The notes below the pieces were generated by a model. That model was not told the DNA's origin and ran no database searches. It was given only the letters and a program-made list of their open reading frames with translations. From an uncultured Rhodopila sp. (lineage in GTDB: Bacteria; Pseudomonadota; Alphaproteobacteria; Acetobacterales; Acetobacteraceae), in contig NZ_CAJATU010000123.1 in assembly GCF_903944925.1 (NCBI RefSeq), positions 186,001-250,000 on the forward strand: a stretch of DNA of 64,000 nucleotides, written 5' to 3'. The position numbers and the translations under genes were made by a program. This document shows, one piece after another, positions 42,249 through 61,769 of this stretch (the stretch's first letter is position 1; each line of letters begins with the position of its first letter).

Positions 42249-42381
42249 GCCGACCTTTCCCCCGTTCCGATTTTTCGCGTTGCCTACCATAAACGGAGCA
42301 GTGGTGGGAAGGCGAAGATTTCGCTATTCTGGGGTCGGTTCCATTGATATTCATGACCTTGGAACGCAACATCAGACGCGT

Positions 42382-42405
42382 TGATGAAAGCATAAAAACT
42401 TCTGA
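42382..42405. promoter_or_regulatory. Putative CbbR-type operator upstream of dabB
   Basis: The sequence has TGA-N8-TAA-N7-TGA, i.e. two overlapping TNA-N7/8-TNA boxes as in the published CbbR consensus. It lies in the gap between the divergent LysR gene and dabB, 93 bases before dabB. The same order and spacing recurs at 46816-46839, and the 30 bases ending at 42410 match those ending at 46844 at 22 positions, the last 11 identical. Binding is inferred. Confidence 0.6.
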
Positions 42406-42498
42406 ATATCCGTCCCGGCCGTGATGGCTATGACGTTGCGCGTGTCCATCCCCCGAGGCCGGCTTGCGCTTGCATTCACTCCAGCGCTGGAGGCTTGA

Positions 42499-44106
42499 AT
42501 GGTTACGACGTCTCTCTGGCTTGCCGCGGCCGGTCCGGTTTCCCTCGCCGGCATCGGTTGCTATGCGGCGCGGACTTCAAGCGCACCGATACGCCGCATC
42601 ACCTGGCTGGCGGAGGCCGCTGCCCTGCTCGCGCTCGGCGCGGCGCTGGCAACCGCCGGGGCTGTTGCGGTGCACGGCAGTTTGCAATCTCCCACGCTGG
42701 GCCTGTCCGGTATCGGCTTCAGCCTCTACGCCGATCGGCTAAGCGCGGTGATGGTGTGTCTTGTCGCGTTCGTCGGCGCGATCGTTGTGGCCTATAGCCG
42801 CACCTACATGGATGGCGACCCCGGTCATGCGCGGTTCACCGGCCGGCTTTGCATCACGCTGTCCGCGGTATTGCTGGTGATCCTGGCCGGCAACCTTTTG
42901 CTGTTCGCAGTGGCCTGGTTCTGCACAAGCTTGGCTTTGAATCGGCTCTTGCTGTTCTATCCGGAGCGGCCGGCCGCATTGCTCGCGGCACGCAAGAAAT
43001 TCGTTGCAAGCCGGCTCGGGGATCTGTGCCTTATCGGCGCTTGCGTTCTACTGTACCGCGCGTTCGGCAGCCTCGACTACGCGGCCATCTTTGCCAGCGC
43101 CGACACGATGCGCGGTGTGGCGCAAACCCCGGCGGCGGCCCATGCCATCGCCATTCTGCTGGTTTGCACGGCAATGTTGAAATCCGCGCAGTTCCCCACC
43201 CATGGCTGGCTGATCGAGGTGATGGAGACGCCGACGCCGGTCTCGGCGCTGTTGCACGCCGGAATCATCAATGCCGGCGGCTTCCTTATTATCCGTTTCT
43301 CGGACGTCATCACATTGTCGTTGCCGTCCCTGCACATGCTCGCTTTGCTTGGCGGCTGCACTGCGCTGTTCGGCTCGGTCGTGATGCTGACGCAAACATC
43401 CATCAAAGTGTCGCTCGCCTGGTCCACCGTGGCGCAGATGGGATTCATGATGCTGGAATGCGGCCTCGGCGCTTTCTCAGCCGCAACGCTGCACATCGTG
43501 GCGCACTCGTTCTACAAGGCGCATGCGTTTCTTTCCTCGGGCAGCGTGATCGATATCTATCGCACATCGTTCACGCCGAACCCCGGCGGCAAGCCGCACC
43601 CGCTGCGCTGGATCTTCGCAATCGGCGGCGTGCTTGCCGTGACGTTTCTGTTCAGCGTGGCGACAGGCTACACCATCACCGCACAGCCCGGCGTATTCGC
43701 GCTCGGCGCCGTGCTGTTGCTCAGCCTGACGCACCTGGTCGCCAATGGCATCGACGAGCGGCCGAACGGCTATGTCGTCGGGCGCGTGCTGGCGATGGCC
43801 TGCTTTGTCGCAATCGCTTATTTCGGGTTGCAGTTCGGCGCCGATTACCTGCTGGACGGCTCGCTGCCGAAAGCGCAGCCGTTGCGCGGCCCATTCGGAG
43901 TGCTGCTGGTCGCGATGATCGTCGGTTCTTACTCAGTCGTTATATTCTTGCAGGGATCTGCGGCGAAGCATCAGGCGCAGCCGCGCTGGCAGGCGCTCTA
44001 TGCGCATGTGCATAGTGGCTTCTATGTAAACACTTTGGCCAACCGGCTGGTGCTGCAGTATTGGCCAAGACCCGCGCCGTCCCGAAGCACGGGAGCGCAC
44101 GCATGA
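42499..44106 (+). CDS. dabB: DabB, membrane subunit of the inorganic-carbon uptake complex
   Basis: A 535-residue integral membrane protein of the NuoL/MrpA proton-channel family with about 13 hydrophobic helices. The conserved channel segments FPTHGWLIEVMETPTPVSAL and AGIINAGGFLIIRF are present. Unlike true complex I subunits it stands beside dabA and a CbbR-like regulator, the arrangement of DAB (DABs accumulate bicarbonate) systems. DabB is thought to use the cation or proton gradient to drive DabA, which converts CO2 to bicarbonate in the cytoplasm. A strong GGAGG lies 6 bases before the start. The gene overlaps dabA by four bases (ATGA), so production is coupled. Confidence 0.9.
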   Translation: MVTTSLWLAAAGPVSLAGIGCYAARTSSAPIRRITWLAEAAALLALGAALATAGAVAVHGSLQSPTLGLSGIGFSLYADRLSAVMVCLVAFVGAIVVAYSRTYMDGDPGHARFTGRLCITLSAVLLVILAGNLLLFAVAWFCTSLALNRLLLFYPERPAALLAARKKFVASRLGDLCLIGACVLLYRAFGSLDYAAIFASADTMRGVAQTPAAAHAIAILLVCTAMLKSAQFPTHGWLIEVMETPTPVSALLHAGIINAGGFLIIRFSDVITLSLPSLHMLALLGGCTALFGSVVMLTQTSIKVSLAWSTVAQMGFMMLECGLGAFSAATLHIVAHSFYKAHAFLSSGSVIDIYRTSFTPNPGGKPHPLRWIFAIGGVLAVTFLFSVATGYTITAQPGVFALGAVLLLSLTHLVANGIDERPNGYVVGRVLAMACFVAIAYFGLQFGADYLLDGSLPKAQPLRGPFGVLLVAMIVGSYSVVIFLQGSAAKHQAQPRWQALYAHVHSGFYVNTLANRLVLQYWPRPAPSRSTGAHA

Positions 44107-46622
44107 GCCTGCTGGCCGAACGGGACGCAACCGCGACGATGCCCGGTCCGGGGGAGCTTACCGCCGCCATAAAGGTCGCCTGCTCCCGCATCGCGCCGGT
44201 CTGGCCGTTGAAGAACTTCGTCGCGGTCAATCCGTTCCTTGGGTTCATCGAGCAGAGCTTCCACGCGACGGTGGCGACCTTGCACCGGGTAGCCCGCACC
44301 CGCGCGCTGATGCCGCGCAGTTTCTATCGACAGGCACTCGCGGCGGGCACGGTCGAGGACCAGGATCTGGCGCAGGCGCTCGCGGGCGCGCAGCCGGACT
44401 GGCGCCTGCCGCCGACCGTGGATGCGCTGAAGTCCGTTCTTGACAGCAATGAAACGTCCGGTCTCAGGCATCCGGCGCATGTGGCCACCGTCGCCGAGGT
44501 CCTGAACGAGCTTGCGGATGGCGACAAGCAGGTGGCGCGCACGCAATTCATGATCGATGAAATCTCGAGATGGTGTGCCGCCTATTTCGACGACGGCCAG
44601 TCGGTGTGGCGCATGCCGTCCCGCGGCTTGACCCCGTTCGCCGCCTGGCGTTCCTCCGTCCGTTACGACCTGAACCCCGAGGCGATGGGAATTTCCGGCT
44701 TCCGCCGGCTTGTCGCCGAGCTGCCTTCCGACCCGGTCGCGGCCATCGGCGCGGTCGTGCAGCGCCAGGGCGTGCCGAACCGGGCCGTTGCGGATTACTT
44801 GCACCAGGCGCTGCTCGATATCGGCGGCTGGGCCGCCTATGCCCGTTACCTGAAATGGCAGGCCGAGCTGCATGGCGGCGCAGACGATACGCTGGAGCAA
44901 CTGCTCGCCATACGCGTGGTCTGGGGCTACACGCTGTTCATGCAGCGCACCGACGAGGCGTTCCGGCGCGCGTGGCGCGAGGCGATGGCGCATGCCGCGT
45001 TGCCGCCACAGGACGAAAAGCTGGGCGACGATCCGGAACTCTGCATCGATATGGTGCTGCACGAGGCGTATGAGGCGGCGTTCCAGCGCCGGCTGCTGGC
45101 GCAACTCGCGCAGGCCCCCGCCGCCCCGCATCCGGACCGTCCGTCGGTGCAAGCCGCGTTCTGCATCGACGTGCGATCGGAGATCTACCGCCGCGCCTTG
45201 GAAAGCCAATCGGCCGGCATCCAGACCATCGGCTTCGCCGGCTTCTTCGGTTTTCCGATCGAATACCTGCCGATCGGCCATGTGCGGGGCCGCGCGCACT
45301 GCCCGGTGCTGCTCAGCCCCGCCTTCACCGTCTGCGAGGCCGTGGGCGGCGTGTCCGCGGCGGAGGAGACCGAGATCATGGGCCTGCGCCTGATGCGCCG
45401 GCGCGTGTTCAAGGCATGGAAGGCTTTCAAGCTGATGGCCGTCTCCTCCTTCATTTTCGTCGAATCCGCCGGCCTGCTTTACGGCGCGAAACTGCTCAGC
45501 GACAGCCTGGGGCTGACACGCACGGTGCACGACCCGAACACCGACGGCCTCGACGAAAAGGTCATCGATCGGCTGGGCCCGAGCATAGAGCCGGGCCTGG
45601 TGAGCGGCCGGCGCACCGGGTTCGATCCGAAACAGCGCATCGACATGGCGGAGGCTGTGCTGCGCGCGATGTCGATGACCGGGCCATTCGCACGGCTGGT
45701 GATGCTGACCGGCCATGGCAGCACGACGGTGAACAACCCGCGTGCCGCCGGCCTGAATTGCGGCGCCTGCGGCGGCTATACTGGCGAGGCGAACGCGCGC
45801 ACCGCGGCGCTGATCCTGAACGACCCGGAGGTGCGCGCAGGCCTCAAGGCGCGCGGGATCGCGATCCCGGCCGATACATGGTTCCTTGGCTGCCTGCACG
45901 ATACCTGCACCGACGACGTCAGGATCTTCGACACGCAATCGGTGCCGCCCGGGCACGCCGAGGACTTGGCACGCCTGCGCGCCCTGGTCGCGCGCGCCAG
46001 TGCGCTCGCCCGGCTTGAGCGGTCGGCGCTGCTGGGAATCCACCCGGGCGGCGATGTCGACAAGCAGGTGAAATACCGCAGCCGCGACTGGGCCCAGGTT
46101 CGCCCCGAATGGGGGCTCGCCGGCAACGGCGCGTTCATCGCGGCACCCCGCGCCCGCACGCGCGGGATCGATCTCGGCGGCCGCGCCTTTCTGCACGACT
46201 ATGACTGGGAAAAGGATCAAGGCTTCAAGACCCTCGAGCTGATCATGACCGCGCCGATGGTCGTCGCGAGCTGGATCAACCTTCAGTACTACGGCTCCAC
46301 TGTGAATAACGAGACGTTCGGTTGCGGAAACAAGGTGCTCCACAACGTCTCCGGAACGATCGGCGTTCTTGAAGGCAATGCCGGCGACCTGCGCGTCGGC
46401 CTGCCGCGGCAGTCACTGCATGACGGGAATCGTTACATACATGAGCCGATCAGGCTGAATGTGATGATCGAGGCGCCGCGCGCCGCGATCGAAGATATCA
46501 TCCGCAAGCACTCAACAGTGCGTCAACTGCTGGACAATGGCTGGCTGCATCTCTGGACGATATCGGCGGAAGGCAGAGTATCGGCGCGCTACCGGGGGCG
46601 TTTGAGCTGGGCCGACATTTGA
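44103..46622 (+). CDS. dabA: DabA (DUF2309), zinc subunit of the inorganic-carbon uptake complex
   Basis: An 839-residue soluble protein with a beta-carbonic-anhydrase-like zinc site. Expected zinc and catalytic residues are all present: Cys354 and Asp356 in FCIDVRSE, His538 in LTGHGSTT, and Cys553 in LNCGACGG. These correspond to C351, D353, H524 and C539 of the Halothiobacillus protein. The family signature PLKNFVAVNPF is near the N-terminus, and a FGCGNKVLHNVSG segment near the C-terminus. With DabB it forms an energy-coupled CO2-to-bicarbonate pump at the inner membrane. The ATG at 44103 is chosen because it overlaps the dabB stop; an upstream in-frame start at 44061 is within dabB. It would supply bicarbonate to the carboxylase encoded next. 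Confidence 0.93.
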   Translation: MSLLAERDATATMPGPGELTAAIKVACSRIAPVWPLKNFVAVNPFLGFIEQSFHATVATLHRVARTRALMPRSFYRQALAAGTVEDQDLAQALAGAQPDWRLPPTVDALKSVLDSNETSGLRHPAHVATVAEVLNELADGDKQVARTQFMIDEISRWCAAYFDDGQSVWRMPSRGLTPFAAWRSSVRYDLNPEAMGISGFRRLVAELPSDPVAAIGAVVQRQGVPNRAVADYLHQALLDIGGWAAYARYLKWQAELHGGADDTLEQLLAIRVVWGYTLFMQRTDEAFRRAWREAMAHAALPPQDEKLGDDPELCIDMVLHEAYEAAFQRRLLAQLAQAPAAPHPDRPSVQAAFCIDVRSEIYRRALESQSAGIQTIGFAGFFGFPIEYLPIGHVRGRAHCPVLLSPAFTVCEAVGGVSAAEETEIMGLRLMRRRVFKAWKAFKLMAVSSFIFVESAGLLYGAKLLSDSLGLTRTVHDPNTDGLDEKVIDRLGPSIEPGLVSGRRTGFDPKQRIDMAEAVLRAMSMTGPFARLVMLTGHGSTTVNNPRAAGLNCGACGGYTGEANARTAALILNDPEVRAGLKARGIAIPADTWFLGCLHDTCTDDVRIFDTQSVPPGHAEDLARLRALVARASALARLERSALLGIHPGGDVDKQVKYRSRDWAQVRPEWGLAGNGAFIAAPRARTRGIDLGGRAFLHDYDWEKDQGFKTLELIMTAPMVVASWINLQYYGSTVNNETFGCGNKVLHNVSGTIGVLEGNAGDLRVGLPRQSLHDGNRYIHEPIRLNVMIEAPRAAIEDIIRKHSTVRQLLDNGWLHLWTISAEGRVSARYRGRLSWADI

Positions 46623-47065
46623 TCGCCGATCCAAGGCTGGATCTGATGGTGTGGTGCCGCAATGGCCGTCAGCCGGAGAACGCTCCAGCCGCCTGTTCCG
46701 CTTCTCGCAGACTTGAAAGCGGGATCCACCTTGTCCAAGGCGAGATGGACACCACCATCTTGAGCAGGTCGCCATTCCGGGCCGCGTCCGGCGTGCCGTC
46801 AGCCCAAAGCCGCAGTTATTGTAGTATAAGAATTTCTGAATATCGCGACCGCAGCAATCCGCCCTAGCGTCCTGTCAGCGCAAGGCCCCTCGCTGTCACC
46901 GAGGCGCCAGGGACAGGCGGGCGCAGCTGGGGATAAGAAACGGGGGGGTCACGCGATGCGCAGCTCAGGCCGTAGGAAGCCTGCCGGAGATCCATCTGCC
47001 GGGCGTCGGACGCCCCTGCGGGGTGACCGCTCCCCCTGCGCCGACCGCCGCGGCGGCGCGTCCGC
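46623..47065. other. Intergenic region before the 3-hydroxypropionate operon
   Basis: This 443-base gap holds a short hairpin just after dabA (GATCC/GGATC, near 46628-46643) that may be too weak to terminate. It also has an AT-rich patch at 46816-46850 with a LysR-type operator candidate. The remaining 200 bases are GC-rich up to the carboxylase start. Short open frames here show no recognisable domain. Confidence 0.45.
46816..46839. promoter_or_regulatory. Putative CbbR-type operator upstream of the carboxylase gene
   Basis: The sequence has TTA-N8-TAA-N7-TGA, the same order and spacing as the site before dabB, followed by the same ATATC. It lies 226 bases before the acetyl-CoA carboxylase start in the only AT-rich patch of this gap. 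It suggests the LysR-type regulator at 41349-42248 also controls the 3-hydroxypropionate operon. Confidence 0.55.
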
Positions 47066-50000
47066 ATGAGCGCACAAACAGCGCAACGTCGGAACCTGTC
47101 GCGCATCGTGGTCGCCAACCGCGGCGAAGCGGCGGTGCGCTTCATGCGCGCCGCGCGCACATGGTCCAGTCAGCACAACGCGCCGCTCGAGACGATCGCG
47201 CTCTACACCCGGGCCGACGAGGGCGCGCGGTTCGTGCGCATGGCGTCGCGCGCGATCTGCATCGGCGAGGCCTTCGTGCCCGACGCCGATGGGCGGTCCC
47301 GCAGCGCCTATCTCGACATCGACCGCATCGTCGGCCTGGCCCGCGAGGCGGGGGCGGACGGGATTTGGCCCGGCTGGGGCTTCGCCTCGGAAAAGCCCGA
47401 GTTGCCGGACGCCTGTGAGGCCGCGAACCTCACTTTCCTCGGACCGCCGGCCAGCGCCATGCGGGCGCTCGGCGACAAGATCGCCGCCAAGCGGCTGGCG
47501 GAATCCTGCGATGTCCCGGTCAGCGCCTGGTCCGGCGGGCCGGTGGACGCGACGGCAGCGCAGTCCTGGGCGGAGCGCATCGGCTACCCGGTGCTGCTCA
47601 AGGCGACCGCGGGCGGCGGCGGCCGCGGCATCCGCCGCGTCTACGGGCGCGAGGAGATCGCCGGCGCATTCCAGTCCGCCGCCGCCGAGGCCGCGGCGGC
47701 ATTCGGCGATCCCTCGATCTTCGTCGAAGCATTGATCTCCGAGGCGCGTCACATCGAAGTGCAGGTGCTGGCCGATGGGCATGGCGGCGTGTGGGCCATC
47801 GGCACGCGCGACTGTTCGATGCAGCGGCGCCAGCAGAAAGTGCTGGAGGAAGCACCGGCGCCGGGCCTGGCGCCCGAGGTCGAGCGTGCGCTGTGCGAGG
47901 CCGCGGTGCGGCTGGCCCGCGCCTGCGGCTATGTCAGCGCCGGCACCGCCGAGTTCCTGCTGCTCCCTGACGGGCGCACCTTCTACTTCCTCGAGATGAA
48001 CACACGCCTTCAGGTCGAGCACACCGTCACCGAGGAGGTCTACGGCCTCGACCTGGTGGGCTTGCAGATCGATATTGCCCGCGGCTTGCCGCTGCCCGCG
48101 GCCGAGCCACCCCCGCCGCGCGGCGTGGCGATCGAGGCGCGGCTGAACGCCGAGGATCCCGATCAGGGCTTCGCGCCAAGGGCCGGGCGGCTGCTGCGCT
48201 TCAAGCCGCCGCAGGGCCTGGGAATACGGATAGACTCCGGTTACTCTGCCAACAGCGCGGTGCCGACCGCCTTCGACTCCATGCTTGCCAAGGTGATCGC
48301 GCATGGCGCCACGCGCGAACGCGCGCTCGCGCTGATGGAAGCGGGGCTACAGGACAGCATCATCGTGCTCGATTCCGGCCTGACCAACCGCGCCCTTTTG
48401 CTGGAGCTGGTCGGGCAAAGCGCGTTCCGCGACGGCCCGGTGACGACGGTCTGGCTTGATCGCTACCTGACCGATCGTCCTTCCCCCGCGCAGCGGCCAC
48501 ATCTTGCGATGGCGCTCGCCGCCGCGGCAATCATGGACTATTTGCGCACTCGTTACGGGCAAGTTGCGAACTTCATCGAGGAGACGCAGCGCGGCCTGCC
48601 GCGCAACATCCCGGAACAGGGACCGGTGACGTTGCCCTACGAACTCGACGGCCGGCCGGTGCAGATGGAGGTCGCGACCATCGGCCCGCAGGAGAAGCTG
48701 CTGCGCAGCGGCGACTGGCAGGCGCTGATGCGGGTCGAGCAGGCGGACGACTGGACACTGTATCTGGAGATGGACGGCCGCCGCCACGCGGCGATCTGCT
48801 GCGCGACCCCGGCCGAGGTGCAGGTCGAGCTGGACGGGGTAGCGCACCGCTTTCGCCGAGTCTCCGACGGTCGCATGCGCGCCATGCTGCCGGCGGCGGT
48901 TGCGCAGGTGCACGTCCAGCCGGGCGATCAGGTCTCCGCCGGCGACCGTCTGATCACCCTCGAGGCGATGAAGATGGAAACCACCATCACCTCGTCGCTG
49001 TCCGGCACGGTCAGGTCGGTGCTTGTGCGGCCGGCTGCGCTGGTGGCGGCCGGGGACGTCATGGTGGAAATCGACGTGAACGAGCAGGCGGCGCCGGGCC
49101 AGGCCGGATCGCCGCTATTGCCGCCGCGGCAGGAGCCGCCACTCGATCCGCTGCGGGTGATCGAGGCGCGGCTGCTCGGCTTCGATGTGACCGCCGAGCA
49201 GGTCGATCAGGCGCTGGCCGCGTTGGAGACCGACAGTTCCGTCAGCCGCTCCCGCCTGATGGCGCTGCTGCGCGCCGCGGTGGTGCAGGAGCAGGTGTTC
49301 AAGAGCGGACAATACGACGACGCGATGAACGATGCGCGCGAAAGCAGCCTCGAGCAGCTCACGTGGTTCGTGCATCACCGCCGCCTCGATGAGCAACGCC
49401 TGTCGGCGCGCATGATTCGCCGGCTTGGCCGCTTTCTCGACCTGCACGACATCAAGGAAGCAAGCGATCCCCGCGTCGGCTACGCGCTGATGCGCCTGTT
49501 CCAGGCGCGGGCGGCGGAAGGCTCGCCGAGCCGTCTTCTGCTGGACCTGTTGCACGCGCTGGCCCGCACACGCGACGAGCAGGACGCAGGCGGCGCGGTC
49601 GAGCAGCGGGTGATCTTCGAGAAGCTGGCCAACGAGGCGCTGCAGCGCGGCGACCGCCGGGTGGCGACCGCGGCGTGGAACCTGATTCACCGCTGGCACG
49701 ACCTGCCAGCGCAGCAAGCCAGGACGGCGGCCGACCTGGCGCAGGCCGGGACGATGTGGCAGCGCCTGCCGGAGCAGCCGCCGGAACCGGCGCTGAGCGC
49801 AATGCCGCTGGCTATCCTGGTCAGAACGCTGCCGTTCTCGGCGGCTTCAGGCAATGGGCTGATCGCGTTCGTCATGGCACGCATCTACGGCGATGTGGCG
49901 TTCATCGATTCGGCTCCGCTGTTGGGCCGCATCCCGTGCAGGACCGTGCGTCTGGCCGGCGGCACGTTGGTCGCGGGGCTGCTGGTGTCCGAGCCGGACG

Positions 50001-52504: not shown

Positions 52505-55500
52505 CCCACGTGAACGACATCTCCTTCGAGCAGGAGCGGACGCCGAGCCCGGTCCCACCCGTCCAGCCGCGCGTCAATCGTCTGGTCGACCATGCCGCGT
52601 GGACAGCCGCGCGCGAGGCGTGCCGACGCGATCCCGGAGGCTTCCACGGCGTGATCGCGCGGCGGAACCTGCATTGGCTCGCACCCGGCGTCGGCCCGAA
52701 TGGCGCCTGGATCACGTTCGACGAGGATCGCCGAGACTGGACCGGCTACGACGCCGTCACCGGCGCGCCGGCCGCCCCCAACCTGCCGGCGGATCACGAA
52801 CCCTGGTCGCGCGCGTTCAACGGCGATGAGCCGCCGTTCTACCGCTGGTTCGAAGGCGGCCTGACGAACGCCTGCTTCAACGAGGTCGACCGGCACGTCC
52901 TGGCGGGTCACGGCGAGGAGCCGGCCTTCTTCTTCGAAGGTGACCGGTGGGACCAGTCGCTCAACGGCGGGCAGGGCGGCCCGGTGGTGCACTATGCGAT
53001 CAGCCGCCGCCGGCTGCTGTTCGAAGTGGCGCGCGCCGCCCTGGCGCTGCAGTCGCTCGGGCTGGGTCGCGGCGACCGCATCGCGCTGAATATGCCGAAC
53101 ATCCCCGAACAGGTTTATTACACCGAGGCGGCGAAGCGCCTGGGGATCATCTACACGCCGGTGTTCGGCGGTTTTTCCGACAAGACGCTGTCGGACCGCA
53201 TCCATGATTGCGGCGCCCGCGTGGTGGTCACCGCCGACGGTGGCTTTCGCAACGCGCAGATCGTGCCGTTCAAGGAAGTCTACACCGACGCCGCACTGGA
53301 CCGTTACCTGCCCGTCGAAACCGCGCTCGGCGCCATGCAAGGCCAGCTCGATGCGCTCGGCGTGCCGGCCGGTTCGGCCGAACTGATTGCCCGGCGCGCG
53401 GCCGAAGCAGTCGCCGGCGAGATCACCGTCGAGCGCAGCGACGTGATGCGCGGCGTCGGACGCGCGCTGGCCGAACTTATCGGCGGCGGCGCGCTCGACG
53501 CCGAAGCGGCGAGCGGCATCCGCACCTCGATCGCCCGCGCGCTCGTCGCCGCGCCGCGGCGTGTCGAGGCGGTCGTGGTGGTGCGCCATACCGGCCAGTC
53601 CGACCTGTCGTGGCGGCCCGGGCGCGATTGCTGGAGCCACGAGCTGCTGGCCCGGGCAACCGGGACGATGCTGGCAGCGGCGCGCGAGGCCGGCTTCGCG
53701 GTCAATGACGAGGCGGCGCTGCTGGCGCTGCCGGACCGCGACTTCGTGCGGGCGGTGTGGGCGAGCACGAAACCGGTCCCGCTCGACGCGGAATTCCCGC
53801 TTTTCATCATCTACACCTCGGGCTCGACGGGCAAGCCGAAGGGCGTCGTCCATGTGCACGGCGGCTATCTTTCCGGCCTGGTCGAGACGATGCGCGTGTC
53901 GTTCGACGCGCGTCCCGGCGACGTCATGTACGTCGTCGCCGATCCGGGCTGGATCACCGGGCAGAGCTACATGATCGCCGCCGCGCTCGCCAGCCGGGTG
54001 ACCAGCGTGCTGGGCGAGGGCGCGCCGTTGTTCCCCTCGGCCGGGCGTTTCGCCTCCATCATTTCCCGCTACGGCGTCAACATCTTCAAGGCGGGGGTGA
54101 CGTTCCTCAAGGCGGTGATGCAGGACCCGCAGAACGCCGCCGACGTCCGCGAGTACGATATGTCGTGCCTGCGCGTTGCCACGTTCTGCGCCGAACCGAC
54201 CTCGCCGACGGTGCAGCAGTTCGCCATGCAACTGATGACGCCCTGGTACATCAACTCCTACTGGGCGACCGAGCACGGCGGGATCGCCTGGACGCATTTC
54301 TTCGGCAACGGCGACTTCCCGCTGCGCGCCGATGCGCACACCTATCCGTTGCCCTGGATCGAGGGCGACGTGTGGGTGGCCACCGGGCAGGCCGCTGACG
54401 GCCGCGCCGCGTGGCGGCGGGCGGAGCCGGGCGAGAAGGGCGAGATCGTCATCGCCGCACCCTACCCGTATCTTGCCCGCACGATCTGGGGCGATGCGGA
54501 AACCTTCGCCGTCGATGGCCCCGGGGTCGTCCGGGCCTGGTACGGCGACCGGCAGCGCTACGCGGCGACCTATTGGGAACGCTGGTCCGGCGCCTGCGCC
54601 TACACCCAGGGCGATTTCGCGATCCGTCACGACGACGGCAGCTTCTCGCTGCACGGACGCAGCGACGACGTGATCAACGTCTCCGGCCATCGGCTCGGCA
54701 CCGAGGAGATCGAAGGCGCGATCCTGCGCGACCGTCAGGTCAACCCGGACTCGCCCGTCGGCAACGTGATCGTCGTCGGCGCGCCGCATCGCGAGTCGGG
54801 TCTCACACCGCTCGCCTTCGTCCGGCCGGCGGCCAACCGCCATCTTGGCGCGGACGACCGCAGGCGGCTGGCCGAGCTGGTGCGCCAGGAGAAGGGCGCC
54901 ACGGCAGTGCCTTCTGAGTTCATCGAGGTTTCGCAGTTTCCCGAAACCCGCAGCGGCAAGTACATGCGCCGCATGGTGCGCGCGCTGGTCGACGGATCGC
55001 CCGTCGGCGACACCTCCACGCTGCGCAATCCGGATGCGCTGGACGAGATCGCGAAGGCGGTGCACGCCTGGGAGCAGCGCCAGCGGCTGAGCGGAGCGCA
55101 GCGGCGGTTCGAGCATTTCCGCTATTTCCGCATCCAGTATCACCCCGTCCGGCCGGGCTGCCAGGTCGCCGCGGTCACGATCAGCAACCCGCCGGTCAAC
55201 GCGCTGAACGAGCGGGCGCTGGATGAACTGAATACGGTGGTCGATCACCTGGCGCGCCGCGACGACGTGGCCGCGGTGGTGTTCAGCGGCGAGGGCACCG
55301 GCTCCTTCGTCGCCGGCGCCGACATCCGGCAACTGCTGGAAGACGTGCATGACGTGGAGCAGGCGCTGCCGCTGCCCAACAACGCCCATCTCGCCTTCCG
55401 CAAGATCGAGCGCATGGGCAAGCCGTGCATCGCGGCGGTCAACGGCGTGGCGCTCGGCGGCGGCTGCGAGTTCGCCCTGGCGTGCCACTACCGCCTGGCC

Positions 55501-57984
55501 GAACCGACAGCGACCTTCGGCCAGCCGGAGATACGCCTCAACCTGCTGCCGGGCTACGGCGGCACCCAGCGCCTGCCGCGGCTGCTGGCCGATCGGCAAG
55601 GTGCGGAGGGTCTGACGCAGGCGCTGGAGCTGATTCTGGGCGGCCGCACGGTAACCGCCGAGGAGGCGGCGGCGATCGGGCTGATCGACCGTGTGACCGA
55701 CTCGCCGTCCGGCGTGCTCGGCGTGGCGGTCGAACTGGCCTGTGCGGCCGCGGTGTCCGGCCAAGGCGAGGTTGCGGAAGCGCACCGCAGGCGCACCGCC
55801 GCACTCGCGCGGTGGGAACAGCCGGGCGAGCTGTCACTCGACAGCGTGATCGCCGGCGGCGAAATCCAGCGTCTGCTGCGCCAGGCCGGCACCGCCGGAC
55901 GCGCCGCCGCGGCCGACCGGGCGTTATCGGCGGTCTCGTACGGCTGGCGGCACGGGCTGGAGGCCGGCCTGTCGCACGAGGCGCGGCTGTTCGCCGAGGC
56001 GGTAGCCGATCCGGACGGCGGCAAGCGCGGCATTCGCGACTTTCTCGATCGGCGCAGCGCGCCGCTGCCGACGCGCCGCTGGTTCGAGCCGTCCGCCGAG
56101 GAGCGCGCGCGGATGCTGACGGACGGCCGGCTTCTGCCCATCGGCGCGCCGTTCTACCCCGGCTTTACGCCGCTGCCGACGTACCAGTTCGGCTTTGCGG
56201 TGACCCGCGATCCGGTCACCGGCGCCCCGCGGCATGACGAACCGATCCGCGCCGAGCGCGAGGCGATCGTGCCCGTGGGTCAGCCCGGTCCCAACGAGGC
56301 GCTGGTCTACGTGCTCGCCTCCGAAGTCAATTTCAACGACATCTGGGGCATCACCGGCATCCCGGTGTCGCCGTTCGACAGCCACGATCTCGACTACCAG
56401 GTGACCGGCTCGGGCGGCATCGGCCTGGTCGCGGCGCTGGGCTCCGAGCTGCGGCGCGAAGGGCGGCTCGCCGTCGGCGAGCTGGTGACGATTTATTCGG
56501 GGCAAACCGATCTGCTCTCGCCGCTTGCCGGCGGCGACCCGATGTTCGCCGGCTTCGCCATCCAGGGCTATGAAACCGATACTGGCAGCCACCAGCAGTT
56601 CCTGCTGGTACAGGGGCCGCAACTGCAGCCGGCGCCGGCCGACATGAAGCTGGAAACCGCCGGCGCCTATACGCTGAACCTCGGCACGATCGTGCGGGCC
56701 TTGTTCACGACGCTCGGCATCGAGCCTGGGCGGACGCTGTTCGTCGAGGGCGCCGCCACCGGCACGGGCCTGGACGCGCTGAAGACCGCCGTGCGCAGCG
56801 GCATCGACGCCATCGGCCTCGTCTCCAGCGAGGAACGAGCAGCGTTCGTGCGCGCCCAAGGCGCGAAGGGCGCCGTCAATCGCCGCGATCCGCGGTTTGC
56901 CGGACTGTTCACGACGGTCCCGGACGGGGCCGATGCGGCGGCGGCCTGGCAGCAGGCAGGCGAGGCGCTGGTGCAGGAATGCCGCGAAGCGTTGGGCGGA
57001 CGGTTGCCGGACTATGTGGTCTCGCACGCCGGAGAGACCGCGTTCCCGCGTTCGTTCCAGTTGCTCGCCGAGGGCGGCACGCTGACGTTCTTCGGCGCAT
57101 CCAGCGGCTATTGGTTCAGCTTCGCCGGCAAGCCGGGCGCGGCGTCGCCCGCGGCGATGCTGCGCCGCGCCCGGCTGCGCGCCGGCGAGGCGGTGCTTGT
57201 CTATTATGGCGTCGCTGATGGTGCGGAGCTGATCGATCAGGCTGGGCTGGAAATGATCGAGGCGGCGCGCGCCGGCGGTGCCCGCGTGGTGGTGGCGACG
57301 CTGACCGACGGGCAGCGCGAGTTCATCCAGTCGCTCGGGTTCGGCGACAGCGTGCGCGGCGTCGTGACGATCGAGGAGCTGCATCGGCGCGAAGGCGAGG
57401 CGTTCGAGTGGCCGTCGTCCCTGCCGCGCCTGCCCGATCCCAAGCGCGAAACCGCGGCGTTCAAGGAGGCTGTGCGCGCCTTCCAGGAGCGAACGACCAA
57501 GCCGTTCGGCGCCGCCGTCGGCCGCGTGCTGCGCTCGGCCGACAACCCGCGTGGCGCGCCCGACCTTATTATCGAGCGGGCCGGCCACGACGCGCTGAGC
57601 GTGTCGACCTCGCTGGTCAAGCCGTTCACCGGCCGGGTTGTCTATGCCGAGGAAATGCGCGGCCGCCGCTTCACCTTCTATGCGCCGCAGGTCTGGACGC
57701 GGCAGCGGCGCATCCTGATGCCAACCGCGACGATCGCCGGGACGCATCTGTGCAACGCATTCGAGGTGGCACGGATGAACGAGATGCTCGCCGCCGGCCT
57801 GCTCGACGCGACCGAACCGACGGTGGTCGGGTGGCCCGAGCTGCCGGAAGCCCACCAGGCGATGTGGGAGAACCGGCACCAGGGCGCCACCTATGTCTGC
57901 AATCACGCATTGCCCGCGTTGGGCCTGCGGTCGCGTGACGAACTGTTCGAGGCGTGGGCCGCGTCCGGCCAATCCACAAATTAG
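52501..57984 (+). CDS. pcs: Trifunctional propionyl-CoA synthase
   Basis: A 1827-residue fusion, essentially the length of the Chloroflexus enzyme, turning 3-hydroxypropionate, CoA, ATP and NADPH into propionyl-CoA. Acyl-CoA synthetase domain: about 1-850, with IIYTSGSTGKPKGVVHVHGG near 435-455, YWATEHGGIAW, and catalytic Lys820 in ETRSGKYMRR. Enoyl-CoA hydratase (crotonase) domain: about 880-1210, with FVAGADIRQLLE near 934 and GVALGGGCEFALA near 983. Enoyl-CoA reductase (MDR-type) domain: about 1215-1827, with the NADPH loop VEGAATGTGLDALK near 1414. Fusion of the three steps keeps acrylyl-CoA inside the protein. AGGAG stands 3 bases before the ATG at 52501, which overlaps the carboxylase stop. 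This is a hallmark gene of the 3-hydroxypropionate bicycle. Confidence 0.95.
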   Translation: MTHVNDISFEQERTPSPVPPVQPRVNRLVDHAAWTAAREACRRDPGGFHGVIARRNLHWLAPGVGPNGAWITFDEDRRDWTGYDAVTGAPAAPNLPADHEPWSRAFNGDEPPFYRWFEGGLTNACFNEVDRHVLAGHGEEPAFFFEGDRWDQSLNGGQGGPVVHYAISRRRLLFEVARAALALQSLGLGRGDRIALNMPNIPEQVYYTEAAKRLGIIYTPVFGGFSDKTLSDRIHDCGARVVVTADGGFRNAQIVPFKEVYTDAALDRYLPVETALGAMQGQLDALGVPAGSAELIARRAAEAVAGEITVERSDVMRGVGRALAELIGGGALDAEAASGIRTSIARALVAAPRRVEAVVVVRHTGQSDLSWRPGRDCWSHELLARATGTMLAAAREAGFAVNDEAALLALPDRDFVRAVWASTKPVPLDAEFPLFIIYTSGSTGKPKGVVHVHGGYLSGLVETMRVSFDARPGDVMYVVADPGWITGQSYMIAAALASRVTSVLGEGAPLFPSAGRFASIISRYGVNIFKAGVTFLKAVMQDPQNAADVREYDMSCLRVATFCAEPTSPTVQQFAMQLMTPWYINSYWATEHGGIAWTHFFGNGDFPLRADAHTYPLPWIEGDVWVATGQAADGRAAWRRAEPGEKGEIVIAAPYPYLARTIWGDAETFAVDGPGVVRAWYGDRQRYAATYWERWSGACAYTQGDFAIRHDDGSFSLHGRSDDVINVSGHRLGTEEIEGAILRDRQVNPDSPVGNVIVVGAPHRESGLTPLAFVRPAANRHLGADDRRRLAELVRQEKGATAVPSEFIEVSQFPETRSGKYMRRMVRALVDGSPVGDTSTLRNPDALDEIAKAVHAWEQRQRLSGAQRRFEHFRYFRIQYHPVRPGCQVAAVTISNPPVNALNERALDELNTVVDHLARRDDVAAVVFSGEGTGSFVAGADIRQLLEDVHDVEQALPLPNNAHLAFRKIERMGKPCIAAVNGVALGGGCEFALACHYRLAEPTATFGQPEIRLNLLPGYGGTQRLPRLLADRQGAEGLTQALELILGGRTVTAEEAAAIGLIDRVTDSPSGVLGVAVELACAAAVSGQGEVAEAHRRRTAALARWEQPGELSLDSVIAGGEIQRLLRQAGTAGRAAAADRALSAVSYGWRHGLEAGLSHEARLFAEAVADPDGGKRGIRDFLDRRSAPLPTRRWFEPSAEERARMLTDGRLLPIGAPFYPGFTPLPTYQFGFAVTRDPVTGAPRHDEPIRAEREAIVPVGQPGPNEALVYVLASEVNFNDIWGITGIPVSPFDSHDLDYQVTGSGGIGLVAALGSELRREGRLAVGELVTIYSGQTDLLSPLAGGDPMFAGFAIQGYETDTGSHQQFLLVQGPQLQPAPADMKLETAGAYTLNLGTIVRALFTTLGIEPGRTLFVEGAATGTGLDALKTAVRSGIDAIGLVSSEERAAFVRAQGAKGAVNRRDPRFAGLFTTVPDGADAAAAWQQAGEALVQECREALGGRLPDYVVSHAGETAFPRSFQLLAEGGTLTFFGASSGYWFSFAGKPGAASPAAMLRRARLRAGEAVLVYYGVADGAELIDQAGLEMIEAARAGGARVVVATLTDGQREFIQSLGFGDSVRGVVTIEELHRREGEAFEWPSSLPRLPDPKRETAAFKEAVRAFQERTTKPFGAAVGRVLRSADNPRGAPDLIIERAGHDALSVSTSLVKPFTGRVVYAEEMRGRRFTFYAPQVWTRQRRILMPTATIAGTHLCNAFEVARMNEMLAAGLLDATEPTVVGWPELPEAHQAMWENRHQGATYVCNHALPALGLRSRDELFEAWAASGQSTN

Positions 57985-57995
57985 GGGGTCCAAGC

Positions 57996-60900
57996 ATGCA
58001 TAGCGAACCGAAATCGCGGGATCGGCTGACCGCCGTGAGCCGACTGGGCGACACGATGGCGGTGGTGACCGGCGCCGCCGGCCAACTCGGCGGACACATC
58101 GTGCAGCGCTTCCTGCGCGAGACCCCCAAGACCGACCGCCCTGCGACCAAGGGCCGGTTGAGCGGCAAGATCGCGCTGGTGACCGGCGCGGCCGGGAATT
58201 TCGGCGGGCACATCGTGGAGCGCTTCCTGCGCGAGGGCGCCACCGTCGTGATGACGGGCCGCGATCCAGACCGGCTGGAGGCGGCGCGCACCCGCGTGCT
58301 GCAAGCCTCCGGCGCGGCGGAGTCGCAGGCCGCCGCGCTGCGCATGGACGGCGCCGACCCTGAGCAGGTGCGATCGGCACTGGCCGCCGTGATCGAACGG
58401 TTCGGCCGGCTGGATGTGATCGTCAACAACGCCGGCTCGGCCGGCCCGCGGCGCAGGCTGGACGACATCCCGCTGAGCCGCGATGAACTCGGCGGCGACA
58501 CCGAGACGGTGGGGGACGCCGCGCGCAACCTGCTGGCGGTGCCCTGGAACGTCGTGCGCGCGGCTTCGCAGTTGCTGCGGCCGGGCGCATCGGTGATCAA
58601 CGTGTCCACCATCTTCTCGAAGACGGAATACTACGGACGCACTGCTTATGTCGTGCCGAAGGCGGCGCTGAACGCGCTGTCGCGGCGGCTCGCGGCGGAA
58701 TTCGGCGCGCACGGCATTCGCGTCAACACGATCTATCCCGGGCCGATCGAAAGCGAGCGGATCAGGACGGTCTTCTCGGCGATGGACCGGCTGCGCGAGG
58801 AGGCCGAGGGGACAACGGCGGGCACATTCTTCCGCCGCATGACGCTGGCGCGGTCGTTCGAGGGACGCGCGCCCGAGCACACCTTCCCCGTTGTCGCCGA
58901 CGTGGTCAACGCGGCGCTGTTCCTGGCCAGCGACGAATCGGCGGCGCTGAATGGCCACGATCTGGAAATCACCCACGGACTGTCGGCGCCGCAGGAGGCC
59001 GGCAACATGATCCTCGACCGGCCGGGATTACGGACCGTTGACGGCACCGGCGCCGCGGTCATCGTGTTTGCCGGCGACGAGCTGCACGACGCGCTGGCGG
59101 TCGCACGAACCCAGGCGTCGGTCGGAGCAGCGGTGCTGCTCGGCGTGGCCGATCAGGAGCAGTTGCATGCCGCGGCGCTCAGCCTGACCGGCGGCGCTGC
59201 CGATGCGGCGATCAAGCCGGTTGTGGCGGATCGCGCGCGCCCGGCCACGGTCGCGGCGGCGCTGCGCGAACACGGCGGCGACGGCCGCCTGACCGCGGCG
59301 ATCATCCTGCCGTCGTTGGCGCCCGGGGCGCTGACCGGCCCGCTGCGGGATGCGCTGGATACGGATGTCGATGCGTTCATCGACCGCGAGCTCGTCGGCG
59401 CCGTCGCGCTGGCGCGCGAGCTCAGCCGCTACTGGCAGAGCTGCCCGGCGCTGGAGCGCACGCCGCGCACGGTCTTCATGAGCAACGGCGACGACGGCAG
59501 CGGCAATGTCTACGCCGAGCTGCTGCGCGCCGCGGTCGGTCAGCTCGTGCGCGTCTGGCGCGACGAGAGCGCGGACGCCGCAAGACGCGGCCAGCGCGTC
59601 CGGGCGGAGTGGAGCAATCAGGTCATCCGCTACACCAACTCCGAGGCCGACGAGGTGTCCTTCGCCGGAGGCAAGGCGGCGCGGCTGCTGTTCAAGGAGC
59701 GGCGGCTGCAGCCGATAGACCTCTGCCTGCCGCCATCGCAGCATGAGGCGACGGGTGCGAGGCGCGCCGAACTCGGCTGGATGGAGAACCTGCTTGGCCT
59801 GCACAAGGGCCGGGTGGCGCTGATCACCGGCGGCTCCTCCGGCATTGGCGGCCAGATCGGCCGGCTGCTCGCCGTGGCGGGCGCCCGGGTGATGCTGGTG
59901 GCGCGCGGCGCCGAACAGTTGCAGGAGATGCGCGACCGCATCGTCGCCGAGCTGGAGGACAGCGGGTATTCCGGCGCCCGGCACCGGGTGCAGATCCTGG
60001 CCGGCGTGGACGTGGCGGACCTCGCCTCGGTCGAGCACACGGCCAACGTCACGCTCGCGACGTTCGGCAGGGTCGATTACCTGATCAACTGCGCGGGTGT
60101 CGCCGGCGCCGAGGAGATGGTGGTGGACATGCCGCTCGATGCCTGGCGGCGCACCCTCGACGCCAACCTGGTATCGAACTACGCGCTGATCCAGCGGCTG
60201 GTGCCGCAGATGAAGCGGCAGGGCACCGGCTACGTGGTCAACGTGTCGTCGTATTTCGGCGGCGAGCGCTACGTGACGATTCCGTATCCGAACCGCGCCG
60301 ACTACGCGACGTCGAAGGCGGGCCAGCGGGCGCTGGCGGAGAACCTCGCGCGCTTCCTGGGGCCCGAGATCCAGATCAACGCGATCTCGCCCGGGCCGGT
60401 GGAGGGCGAGCGGCTGCGCGGCGCCGGTGGCCGGGCCGGCCTCTATGAGCGGCGGGCGCGACTGATCCTCGAACGCCGGCGGTTGAACGCGGTGCATGCC
60501 GCCCTGGTGCGGGCGGCGCGTGACGGCGCGCCGGTCGCCGCGATGCTGGAGCGGCTCGCCGGCAACCGGATCGAGACGATCGCCCGGGACGAGGCGCTGC
60601 CCGCGCGGATGCGCGAGGAGATCGCGGGTTTCGCGAAGGAGGGCAAGGAGGGCGCGTCCTGCGGCGAGTTCCTGATGACCGCCGGGATTGCCGACAAGCT
60701 GCTGTCACGGCTGCGCCGCAGCGGGGCGTTCCAGCACGAACCCGGCGGCGGCGAGCGCTTCGGCGCGGCGTGGATCGGCGCCCTGCCGGTGCCGCCCGAG
60801 CCGTTCCTGCCGCCCGGCGAGGTGGCACGCGAGGCTGAGCGCATCCGTTCCGGGGTTCTCTCGCTGCTGCACCTTGGGCGGATGCCCACCGAGTTCGAGG

Positions 60901-61769
60901 TCGCGCAGGCGACCGTGTTCTACCTCGCCGATCGAGCGGTCTCCGGCGAGACCTTCCAGCCCTCGGGCGGGCTGAGCGTGGAGCGCTCCAGCACCGAGCG
61001 CGAGCTGTTCGGGCGCGCCAAGCGCGAGCGGCTGGAGGCGCTGCGGGGACGCACGATCTGGCTTATCGGCGAGCACCTGACGGCGCACCTCGCCCGCGCC
61101 GCCAACGCTTTCGTCGAGGAGGGGGGCGTGCAGCGGGTCATTCTGCTGACCCGCACCGAGCAGGGCGCAGCCGCGGTGCAGGCCTTGCTGAAGCCGGCCG
61201 CGCAGGACGCCACCCGGGCGATCGTCACGGGCGATGCGATCGAAGACGGCCTCGACCGCGCCCTTGTCGCCGCCGGGGCGCCGCCGGCGGCGGTCATCTC
61301 GATGCCGTTCAGCCCGCTGCCGGAGCAGTTGTTCGATCCCGCGACGGAGCGCCAGCCGCTCGATACCGCGGGCTTCCGCACGCTGATCGAGGAGAACCTG
61401 ACGCACCACTTCCGCGTCGCCGGCCGTGCCGCGCTGTTCGACGACGTGCAACTCGTGCTGGTGGCGCCGGACGTGCCCGCCAAAGGCAGCGCCGCTGCCT
61501 TCGCGCTGGCGAACTTCATCAAGACCACGCTGCACGCCCTGACCGGCACCTTGGCGGTGGAATGCGAGCGCATGGTGCATGGCGCGGTGGTCAACCAGGT
61601 CAATCTGACTCGCCGCGTGCGCAGCGAGGAGCCGGTCACGCCCGAGGAGACGACCGAGGAGATCGAACGGTTTGGACGTGCGGTGCTGCTGGCCGGGGCG
61701 CCGATGCCTAACCTTGAGGACAGCCGTTATCGCTCGCGCATCTACCGGGGTATGGCCATCACCGTCTGA
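57996..61769 (+). CDS. mcr: Bifunctional malonyl-CoA reductase
   Basis: A 1257-residue NADPH enzyme that reduces malonyl-CoA to malonate semialdehyde (C-terminal half) and then to 3-hydroxypropionate (N-terminal half). Both halves contain short-chain-dehydrogenase folds. N-half: LVTGAAGNFGGHIVERFL from Leu61, NNAGSAGPRRRLDDIPLS, and catalytic Tyr218 and Lys222 in YYGRTAYVVPKAALNAL. C-half: LITGGSSGIGGQIGRLLA near 617, and Tyr770/Lys774 in DYATSKAGQRA followed by INAISPGPVEGERLRG. The sequence follows the Chloroflexus enzyme (1219 residues) throughout, ending in YRGMAITV. AGGGGG precedes the start, which is 11 bases after pcs. Residues 23-42 duplicate the nucleotide-binding motif at 61-80, an N-terminal oddity not expected in the family. 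Confidence 0.95.
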   Translation: MHSEPKSRDRLTAVSRLGDTMAVVTGAAGQLGGHIVQRFLRETPKTDRPATKGRLSGKIALVTGAAGNFGGHIVERFLREGATVVMTGRDPDRLEAARTRVLQASGAAESQAAALRMDGADPEQVRSALAAVIERFGRLDVIVNNAGSAGPRRRLDDIPLSRDELGGDTETVGDAARNLLAVPWNVVRAASQLLRPGASVINVSTIFSKTEYYGRTAYVVPKAALNALSRRLAAEFGAHGIRVNTIYPGPIESERIRTVFSAMDRLREEAEGTTAGTFFRRMTLARSFEGRAPEHTFPVVADVVNAALFLASDESAALNGHDLEITHGLSAPQEAGNMILDRPGLRTVDGTGAAVIVFAGDELHDALAVARTQASVGAAVLLGVADQEQLHAAALSLTGGAADAAIKPVVADRARPATVAAALREHGGDGRLTAAIILPSLAPGALTGPLRDALDTDVDAFIDRELVGAVALARELSRYWQSCPALERTPRTVFMSNGDDGSGNVYAELLRAAVGQLVRVWRDESADAARRGQRVRAEWSNQVIRYTNSEADEVSFAGGKAARLLFKERRLQPIDLCLPPSQHEATGARRAELGWMENLLGLHKGRVALITGGSSGIGGQIGRLLAVAGARVMLVARGAEQLQEMRDRIVAELEDSGYSGARHRVQILAGVDVADLASVEHTANVTLATFGRVDYLINCAGVAGAEEMVVDMPLDAWRRTLDANLVSNYALIQRLVPQMKRQGTGYVVNVSSYFGGERYVTIPYPNRADYATSKAGQRALAENLARFLGPEIQINAISPGPVEGERLRGAGGRAGLYERRARLILERRRLNAVHAALVRAARDGAPVAAMLERLAGNRIETIARDEALPARMREEIAGFAKEGKEGASCGEFLMTAGIADKLLSRLRRSGAFQHEPGGGERFGAAWIGALPVPPEPFLPPGEVAREAERIRSGVLSLLHLGRMPTEFEVAQATVFYLADRAVSGETFQPSGGLSVERSSTERELFGRAKRERLEALRGRTIWLIGEHLTAHLARAANAFVEEGGVQRVILLTRTEQGAAAVQALLKPAAQDATRAIVTGDAIEDGLDRALVAAGAPPAAVISMPFSPLPEQLFDPATERQPLDTAGFRTLIEENLTHHFRVAGRAALFDDVQLVLVAPDVPAKGSAAAFALANFIKTTLHALTGTLAVECERMVHGAVVNQVNLTRRVRSEEPVTPEETTEEIERFGRAVLLAGAPMPNLEDSRYRSRIYRGMAITV
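58062..58235 (+). repeat. Partial tandem duplication in the 5' end of mcr
   Basis: Bases 58062-58121 and 58176-58235 are alike at 52 of 60 positions, 114 bases (38 codons) apart and in frame. Both encode the Rossmann loop (TGAAG then GGHIV and RFLRE). The first copy lacks the rest of a nucleotide-binding domain and is followed by a short linker. The second copy is the functional one by alignment with remembered Mcr sequences. Confidence 0.8.

Follow-up and report, generated by a model that had tools for sequence, protein, structure and literature searches.

A candidate bicarbonate-supply module: DAB genes beside 3-hydroxypropionate pathway genes in Rhodopila

A 64-kb stretch of the genome of an uncultured Rhodopila sp. 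(the window; the genome is called G000) carries dabB and dabA, encoding a predicted CO2-hydrating DAB system, next to genes of the 3-hydroxypropionate (3HP) bicycle. Between 41349 and 61769, the order is a LysR-type regulator gene of the CbbR clade on the reverse strand and then, on the forward strand, dabB, dabA and the genes for a single-chain acetyl-CoA carboxylase (ACC), propionyl-CoA synthase (Pcs) and malonyl-CoA reductase (Mcr). All are open frames, and ACC, Mcr and Pcs together cover the first half of the bicycle. We propose that a co-regulated DAB system feeds bicarbonate to the biotin carboxylases of the 3HP pathway under mixotrophic or photoheterotrophic conditions, beside a separate Calvin cycle; the probability of this proposal as a whole is put at about 0.58. 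The link between DAB and the 3HP genes looks functional because the gene sets share an operator-like motif, the regulator is of the type found with 3HP genes, the juxtaposition recurs with unlike DabAs, and DabA and Pcs co-occur.

DabA is a member of PF10070 with the Cys/His zinc ligands and the Asp-Arg dyad. It matched the solved DabA2 (9rd0) with 679 bits, and its residues C368, D370, R372, H552 and C567 align with C351, D353, R355, H524 and C539 of DabA2, whose loss impairs growth according to the available portion of PMC13144422. That portion also gives the recent description of DAB as membrane-potential-coupled CO2 hydration, not a plain bicarbonate pump. Likeness to the same DAB/DAC complex (DAB2; PMC13144422) lies in the nearly full-length alignment of DabA, the five active-site residues and the membrane family of DabB, an antiporter-family protein encoded next to DabA. 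The dabA open reading frame (ORF) spans 44061-46622, and the ATG at 44103, its likely start, overlaps the stop of dabB. Pcs, for which 80 relatives were found, scored 2544 bits over 1799 residues against 6eqo (listed as acetyl-coenzyme A synthetase), which we take to be a Pcs; it is 98-99% identical to the Pcs of two named Rhodopila metagenome-assembled genomes (MAGs). Mcr matched 8hi4, listed as a short-chain dehydrogenase/reductase (SDR) protein and presumably a malonyl-CoA reductase, over nearly its full length (1210 bits), in an ORF of 57954-61769 with a likely ATG at 57996. The genes for ACC and Pcs overlap by 4 nt, and Pcs ends at 57984, just ahead of Mcr. In the near-identical Rhodopila MAGs L002 and L003, the order from dabB to mcr is unchanged and a LysR gene again lies ahead of dabB. 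The first-pass annotation, made from the sequence alone, had named this gene set and described its last three genes as overlapping or nearly abutting, and both descriptions hold; its interval, starting at 42249, takes in the enzyme genes and leaves most of the LysR gene (41349-42290) outside.

A 22-bp segment is common to the LysR-dabB gap and the 443-bp dabA-acc gap, with 19 of its 22 bases identical. With up to three mismatches, the 19-bp core occurs at exactly these two sites in the window, and with up to four no further site was found in the 296,606 bases of the organism's own sequence that were scanned (window and cbb region included). When both gaps were shuffled, one trial in 150 yielded a shared segment that scored as high or higher. 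All three Rhodopila genomes carry the two copies, and 95% of motif columns are invariant among them, compared with 39% and 43% of the other gap columns (a gap in the alignment being treated as a change). The 19-bp core is itself the longest invariant stretch of the dabA-acc gap. Each copy contains TNA-N7-TNA, which is the CbbR consensus in the accessible part of PMC2942843. From these features, we infer that one LysR co-regulates dabBA and acc-pcs-mcr via two operator copies. A scan for promoters and terminators was uninformative, with 1 hit where 1.2 were expected and 8 where 8.8 were.

A matrix built from the six Rhodopila sites only was used to scan related loci. In a Piscinibacter cbb locus, the best of 28,488 positions fell in the cbbR-cbbL gap; in the 3HP cluster of Piscinibacter (L054), the best of 46,262 lay ahead of the orthologous LysR gene, close to the divergent starts. 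The LysR gap of the Rhodopila cbb locus gave a weak match (4.4 bits, rank 3 of 39,760). Gap limits in L054 and in two other Burkholderiales clusters, L065 and L073, were set by us, and gene starts are uncertain there. The core TNA-N4-TTCTGAA is post hoc, having been defined after weak matches in L054 and L065.

The best NCBIfam match of the regulator is CbbR, at 272 bits against a cut-off of 450. In a phylogenetic tree, it and the LysRs from three 3HP clusters of Burkholderiales form a group (97/96) that falls inside the CbbR clade (99/99). LysRs of stand-alone dab loci are separate from it (98/97), and the tree rules out that the window LysR is an ordinary dab-side regulator; one dab-side LysR (L144) sits on a long branch and belongs to neither group. 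Two of the three Burkholderiales genomes whose 3HP-cluster LysRs group with the window LysR lack a DabA match, which suggests that this regulator type belongs primarily to 3HP genes. In a Phenylobacterium locus (L014), the LysR gene is divergent from ACC-Pcs-Mcr with no dab gene in between, and dab lies on a separate contig. The likeness to CbbR and its operators (available text of PMC2942843) consists in the placement in the CbbR clade and the TNA-N7-TNA in the motif; the difference is that dabBA and acc-pcs-mcr take the place of cbb genes as the likely targets predicted here.

DabA was sought in the genomes of all 80 Pcs loci (sets of 50 and 30), many of which are incomplete MAGs, and was found in 46 (23/50 and 23/30), two of the matches being fragments (G071, G076). 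Comparison of dabA neighbourhoods across genomes, which the first-pass annotation had named as a check, revealed the juxtaposition in two more lineages, Sphingomonas psychrolutea (L029) and Piscinibacter (L054), and otherwise mostly stand-alone LysR-dabBA units. In S. psychrolutea, dabBA faces a LysR-pcs-mcr unit. L067 shows the same layout: dabB lies in the Pcs flank at a contig end, with LysR between dabB and pcs-mcr-accA (AccA by Pfam). The LysRs of both loci are of the dab-side type in the tree. The S. psychrolutea mcr is called in two overlapping frames (L029:15559-19283), which may reflect a frameshift or an error in sequencing. Pcs and Mcr of L054 and L073 are preceded by family III CoA-transferases and by a lyase or hydratases; L065 looks similar, judged by gene order and sequence start. 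These three compact Burkholderiales clusters hold much of the 3HP bicycle in one place; the portion of PMC9802188 available reports a Burkholderiales 3HP bicycle, which matches the layout of L054 and L073. Twenty other dabA neighbourhoods, some ended by contig edges, contained no match to Pcs, RuBisCO, biotin carboxylase or carboxyltransferase; their lone Mcr-like match is weak and of the SDR type (27% over 241 aa, L256).

The DabA tree held 75 rows after matches with fewer than 500 aligned residues or with stops were dropped. The DabAs encoded beside Pcs lie far apart in it (the Piscinibacter DabA is a long branch whose place is unsure), and the three Pcs lineages with adjoining dab are also separate in the Pcs comparison. 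Since the DabAs are unlike and the Pcs lineages separate, the juxtaposition most likely arose three times.

Co-occurrence was examined in 199 Sphingomonadaceae genomes, with DabA in 20, Pcs in 16 and both in 9. DabA was present in 9/16 genomes with Pcs and 11/183 without (odds ratio 20, p = 1.2e-6, kinship uncorrected). Removal of three genomes that had been reached earlier via Pcs left 7/13 against 11/183 (p = 2e-5). Class-wide, DabA was counted in 48 of 385 genomes. The search for phototrophy covered 80 genomes: 4 named genomes, the full 27 carrying DabA or Pcs, and 49 of the 172 that carry neither; a match in G581 fell below the cut-off and was left uncounted. G470 (C1:233594-238160) and G624 (C1:2413691-2418257; loci L258 and L259) each have a second pufLM pair at a distance of about 0.6 kb from dabA, which may link DAB to photosynthesis.

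In the mechanism we envisage, the CbbR-clade LysR would recognise both operator copies and bring about joint expression of dabBA and acc-pcs-mcr. DabAB, judged by what is known of the family and by its active-site residues, would let the membrane potential drive one-way hydration of CO2 and so raise cytoplasmic bicarbonate. This bicarbonate would be the direct substrate of the biotin-carboxylase part of ACC, giving malonyl-CoA, which Mcr would convert to 3HP and Pcs would carry on to propionyl-CoA, both enzymes being assigned by homology. A second bicarbonate could enter through a propionyl-CoA-carboxylase-type enzyme, and epimerase and mutase, encoded elsewhere in the genome, would lead to succinyl-CoA. 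The module would then be a bicarbonate supply for biotin carboxylases, mainly for mixotrophic or photoheterotrophic carbon gain, and would stand beside a separate Calvin cycle.

Several observations weigh against this proposal. G000 (7.0 Mb, 99.38% complete, 2.01% contaminated) encodes a RuBisCO large subunit that exceeds the NCBIfam cut-off (447 bits), in a cbb-type operon on contig C72 with its own divergent LysR. RuBisCO, which was sought in G000 and in 50 of the 80 genomes with Pcs loci, is present in Phenylobacterium and, among the three lineages that have dab beside Pcs, in Rhodopila and Piscinibacter. DabA was not found in 34 of the 80 Pcs genomes, and the pathway is to that extent independent of it; dabA lies within the flank of Pcs (up to 10 kb) in 4 of the 46 DabA-positive genomes, namely L002, L003, L029 and L054. 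Outside Rhodopila, this adjacency occurs in 2 of 44, where 0.34 is expected (chance P = 0.046). The three Rhodopila genomes are close kin, which limits the argument from motif conservation, and in the LysR-dabB gap a 33-nt invariant run extends beyond the motif, making conservation less specific there. In L065, L073 and L014, the matrix gave the expected gap lower places (ranks 8, 13 and 7). Kinship may also bear on the Sphingomonadaceae figures, and phototrophy partly confounds them: PufLM was found in 15 of the 16 Pcs-positive genomes, and among phototrophs DabA occurs in 9/15 with Pcs and about 5/26 without (p about 0.01; the figure of 26 is in part extrapolated from the 49 of 172 genomes searched). 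Finally, a cytoplasmic carbonic anhydrase would drain a bicarbonate pool.

The idea of an organism without RuBisCO is rejected by the RuBisCO large subunit of G000. The first-pass annotation had DAB supplying the biotin carboxylase of a RuBisCO-free pathway: the supply half is retained, given the apparently functional DAB-3HP link, and the RuBisCO-free host is not borne out. It had also pointed to a cbb locus elsewhere, regulated together with dabBA, as the case that would speak against it. A cbb locus does exist, but it has its own LysR and a weak motif match only, which does not bear that case out, although cross-regulation of the cbb operon and dabBA is possible. Further members of this operon were putatively assigned by gene order and sequence as fructose bisphosphatase (FBPase), phosphoribulokinase (PRK), aldolase, the RuBisCO small subunit, CbbX and an epimerase; matches in five other RuBisCO loci back the names PRK and CbbX, and the remaining names have no such support. 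Up to about 9 kb from the RuBisCO gene there is no match to DabA or DabB, and the single DabA match in G000 is the one beside the 3HP genes. Two further RuBisCO-like proteins of the RuBisCO superfamily are encoded at G000:C105:27287-28123 and G000:C28:19430-20113.

In the alternative that survives best, DAB meets the general demand for bicarbonate and supplies the Calvin cycle, and its placement beside 3HP genes is incidental. The RuBisCO of G000 and of Piscinibacter fits this, as do the mostly stand-alone LysR-dabBA units of the 20 other neighbourhoods and the general need of heterotrophs for bicarbonate (available text of PMC9894237). The shared operator-like motif and the 3HP-type regulator speak against it, however, and the organism's own cbb gap lacks a strong motif. 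Moreover, the S. psychrolutea dabBA faces LysR-pcs-mcr in a genome in which the RuBisCO search gave no match. We consider it unlikely, though it deserves to be kept in mind. Among the 23 DabA-positive Pcs genomes tested for both, 17 had no RuBisCO match.

ACC is a chain of 1812 aa that combines biotin carboxylase, biotin carrier and carboxyltransferase domains (Pfam), the arrangement of a homomeric ACC. The first matches of its carboxyltransferase half are single-chain ACCs of the eukaryote type (best, 67 bits). Its middle region gave no match in a Pfam search in which the ACC central domain was sought, and the structure model of this region is poor (mean predicted local distance difference test score, 49). 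Phenylobacterium L014 carries a homologue that is 68% identical. Among the literature matches listed, none was relevant to a single-chain bacterial ACC. No full-length AccA was found in G000 (one genome, at the completeness given above), whereas 12 of 14 control genomes gave a match. Three partial AccA matches in G000 (27-35 bits, covering 65-120 of 310 positions within ORFs of 522-676 aa) exceed the Pfam cut-off, which is low at 23. As no full-length AccA was found, the single-chain enzyme may also be the lipid enzyme, and it may be the only acetyl-CoA carboxylase of G000. On a second alternative, it is the general lipid ACC, DAB aids lipid synthesis, and Pcs and Mcr are an overflow or electron sink. 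The AccA result favors this, but it comes from G000 only among the Rhodopila genomes, the genes for ACC, Pcs and Mcr overlap or adjoin one another, and this trio recurs in Phenylobacterium; we regard it as improbable. That DAB and Pcs co-occur only via anoxygenic phototrophy, a light-driven proton gradient powering DAB, accords with the reaction centre in nearly all Pcs-positive Sphingomonadaceae, with DabA being commoner in phototrophs without Pcs too and with the dabA-pufLM proximity in G470 and G624, but is very improbable, as DabA is still commoner with Pcs among phototrophs (from the partly extrapolated table) and the shared Rhodopila motif is left unexplained.

The proposal of a co-regulated bicarbonate supply also draws on genes elsewhere in G000. 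Methylmalonyl-CoA mutase, for which the first-pass annotation had advised a genome search, is represented by two of three mutase-family matches, both above the NCBIfam cut-off, and a methylmalonyl-CoA epimerase likewise exceeds its cut-off. A carboxyltransferase-type subunit adjoins the epimerase; its best family is mmdA (722 bits, below the cut-off of 999), and assignment as propionyl-CoA carboxylase is tentative. Contig C62 encodes a lyase sharing 74% identity with its counterpart in the Piscinibacter 3HP cluster, together with a mesaconyl-CoA-hydratase-type gene 64% identical to the one in L073, which makes the second half of the bicycle possible in G000. PufLM is present in this genome. 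Mixotrophic assimilation, the alternative offered in the first-pass annotation, fits at least as well as autotrophy, and mixotrophic assimilation of acetyl-CoA beside the Calvin cycle would be the simplest role in G000. For a dedicated concentrating mechanism that serves a RuBisCO-free pathway, S. psychrolutea is a better fit than G000.

Table 1. Features of the dab-3HP locus, with positions in the window
Feature	Position	Strand	Basis
LysR-type regulator, CbbR clade, Burkholderiales-3HP-cluster type	41349..42290	-	Pfam LysR, NCBIfam, tree
Operator-like motif copy 1 (TNA-N7-TNA inside), LysR-dabB gap	42389..42410	+	3/3 Rhodopila genomes
dabB, membrane subunit (Proton_antipo_M)	42499..44106	+	Pfam 144.5 bits; adjoins dabA; likewise in L002, L003
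dabA, predicted CO2-hydrating subunit	44103..46622	+	Pfam DabA 910 bits; solved-structure alignment
Operator-like motif copy 2, dabA-acc gap	46823..46844	+	3/3 Rhodopila genomes
Single-chain acetyl-CoA carboxylase (biotin carboxylase, biotin carrier, unassigned middle, carboxyltransferase)	47066..52504	+	Pfam
Propionyl-CoA synthase; AMP-binding, enoyl-CoA hydratase and zinc-alcohol-dehydrogenase-type domains in one chain	52501..57984	+	6eqo, Pfam
Malonyl-CoA reductase, two SDR halves	57996..61769	+	8hi4, Pfam

Other genes of the window were noted in passing. A Class I CoA-transferase of 655 aa (39178-41145, reverse strand) adjoins the LysR gene; it is found in L270 at 95% and not in the stretch L269, and is perhaps not a fixed part of the cluster. 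At 10809-18619 (forward strand), a fused pyruvate:ferredoxin/flavodoxin oxidoreductase-type protein (1657 aa) is followed by a 946-aa flavin/iron-sulfur oxidoreductase, and a fumarase gene lies nearby at 6865-8511. An ORF of 4009 residues (18885-30914, reverse strand) contains passenger-associated transport repeats, a pectate-lyase-like adhesive domain and, near the C-terminal end, a Hint domain.

Classic DAB systems lie beside RuBisCO or carboxysome genes. The other DAB systems compared here stand alone, whereas dabBA of the window sits with 3HP enzymes and beside a 3HP-type LysR. The 3HP bicycle is described from Chloroflexus and also from Burkholderiales and Gemmatimonadota (PMC9802188, as far as available). 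In likeness to it, ACC, Mcr and Pcs are encoded contiguously in the window, with mutases, epimerase, carboxylase subunit, lyase and hydratase elsewhere in G000; the single-chain ACC and the additional RuBisCO set Rhodopila apart. The accessible text of a 2024 review (PMC10880623) notes two Chloroflexota 3HP genomes that carry DAC and SbtA without carbonic anhydrase, which is consistent with bicarbonate use, although two genomes are too few. That case pairs bicarbonate supply with a bicarbonate-fixing pathway and leads to the same inference as ours, but it consists of presence in two genomes, whereas the present one adds a gene cluster, a shared operator-like motif and a co-occurrence test in 199 genomes. 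The general idea has thus already been proposed in the part of PMC10880623 available; the evidence from operon, operator and co-occurrence is new among the literature matches listed. No description of a dab-3HP operon was found among these matches, most subscription journals lying outside the coverage. The parts are known; the proposed wiring of DAB with 3HP genes is new among those matches, specific and testable.

CO2-concentrating mechanisms are mostly treated as aids to RuBisCO. A broader formulation, to which we give slightly less than an even chance, is that of a concentrating module dedicated to biotin carboxylases, in which a CbbR-family regulator was retargeted from Calvin genes to DAB, ACC, Mcr and Pcs, the pairing having arisen on at least three occasions, both where RuBisCO is present (Rhodopila, Piscinibacter) and where the search for it gave no match (S. 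psychrolutea). If the proposal is true, this would be a carboxysome-free concentrating mechanism that does without a carbonic anhydrase step. Bicarbonate limitation as a general principle is supported by the available text of PMC9894237 and PMC10881976, and in the latter bicarbonate supply is the reported bottleneck of engineered 3HP production in yeast; a natural cluster of supply plus pathway would therefore offer a ready-made design. The question left open by the two genomes of PMC10880623, in the text available, gains a testable set of strains, S. psychrolutea among them. If the proposal holds, many anoxygenic phototrophs deemed heterotrophs may fix appreciable amounts of inorganic carbon.

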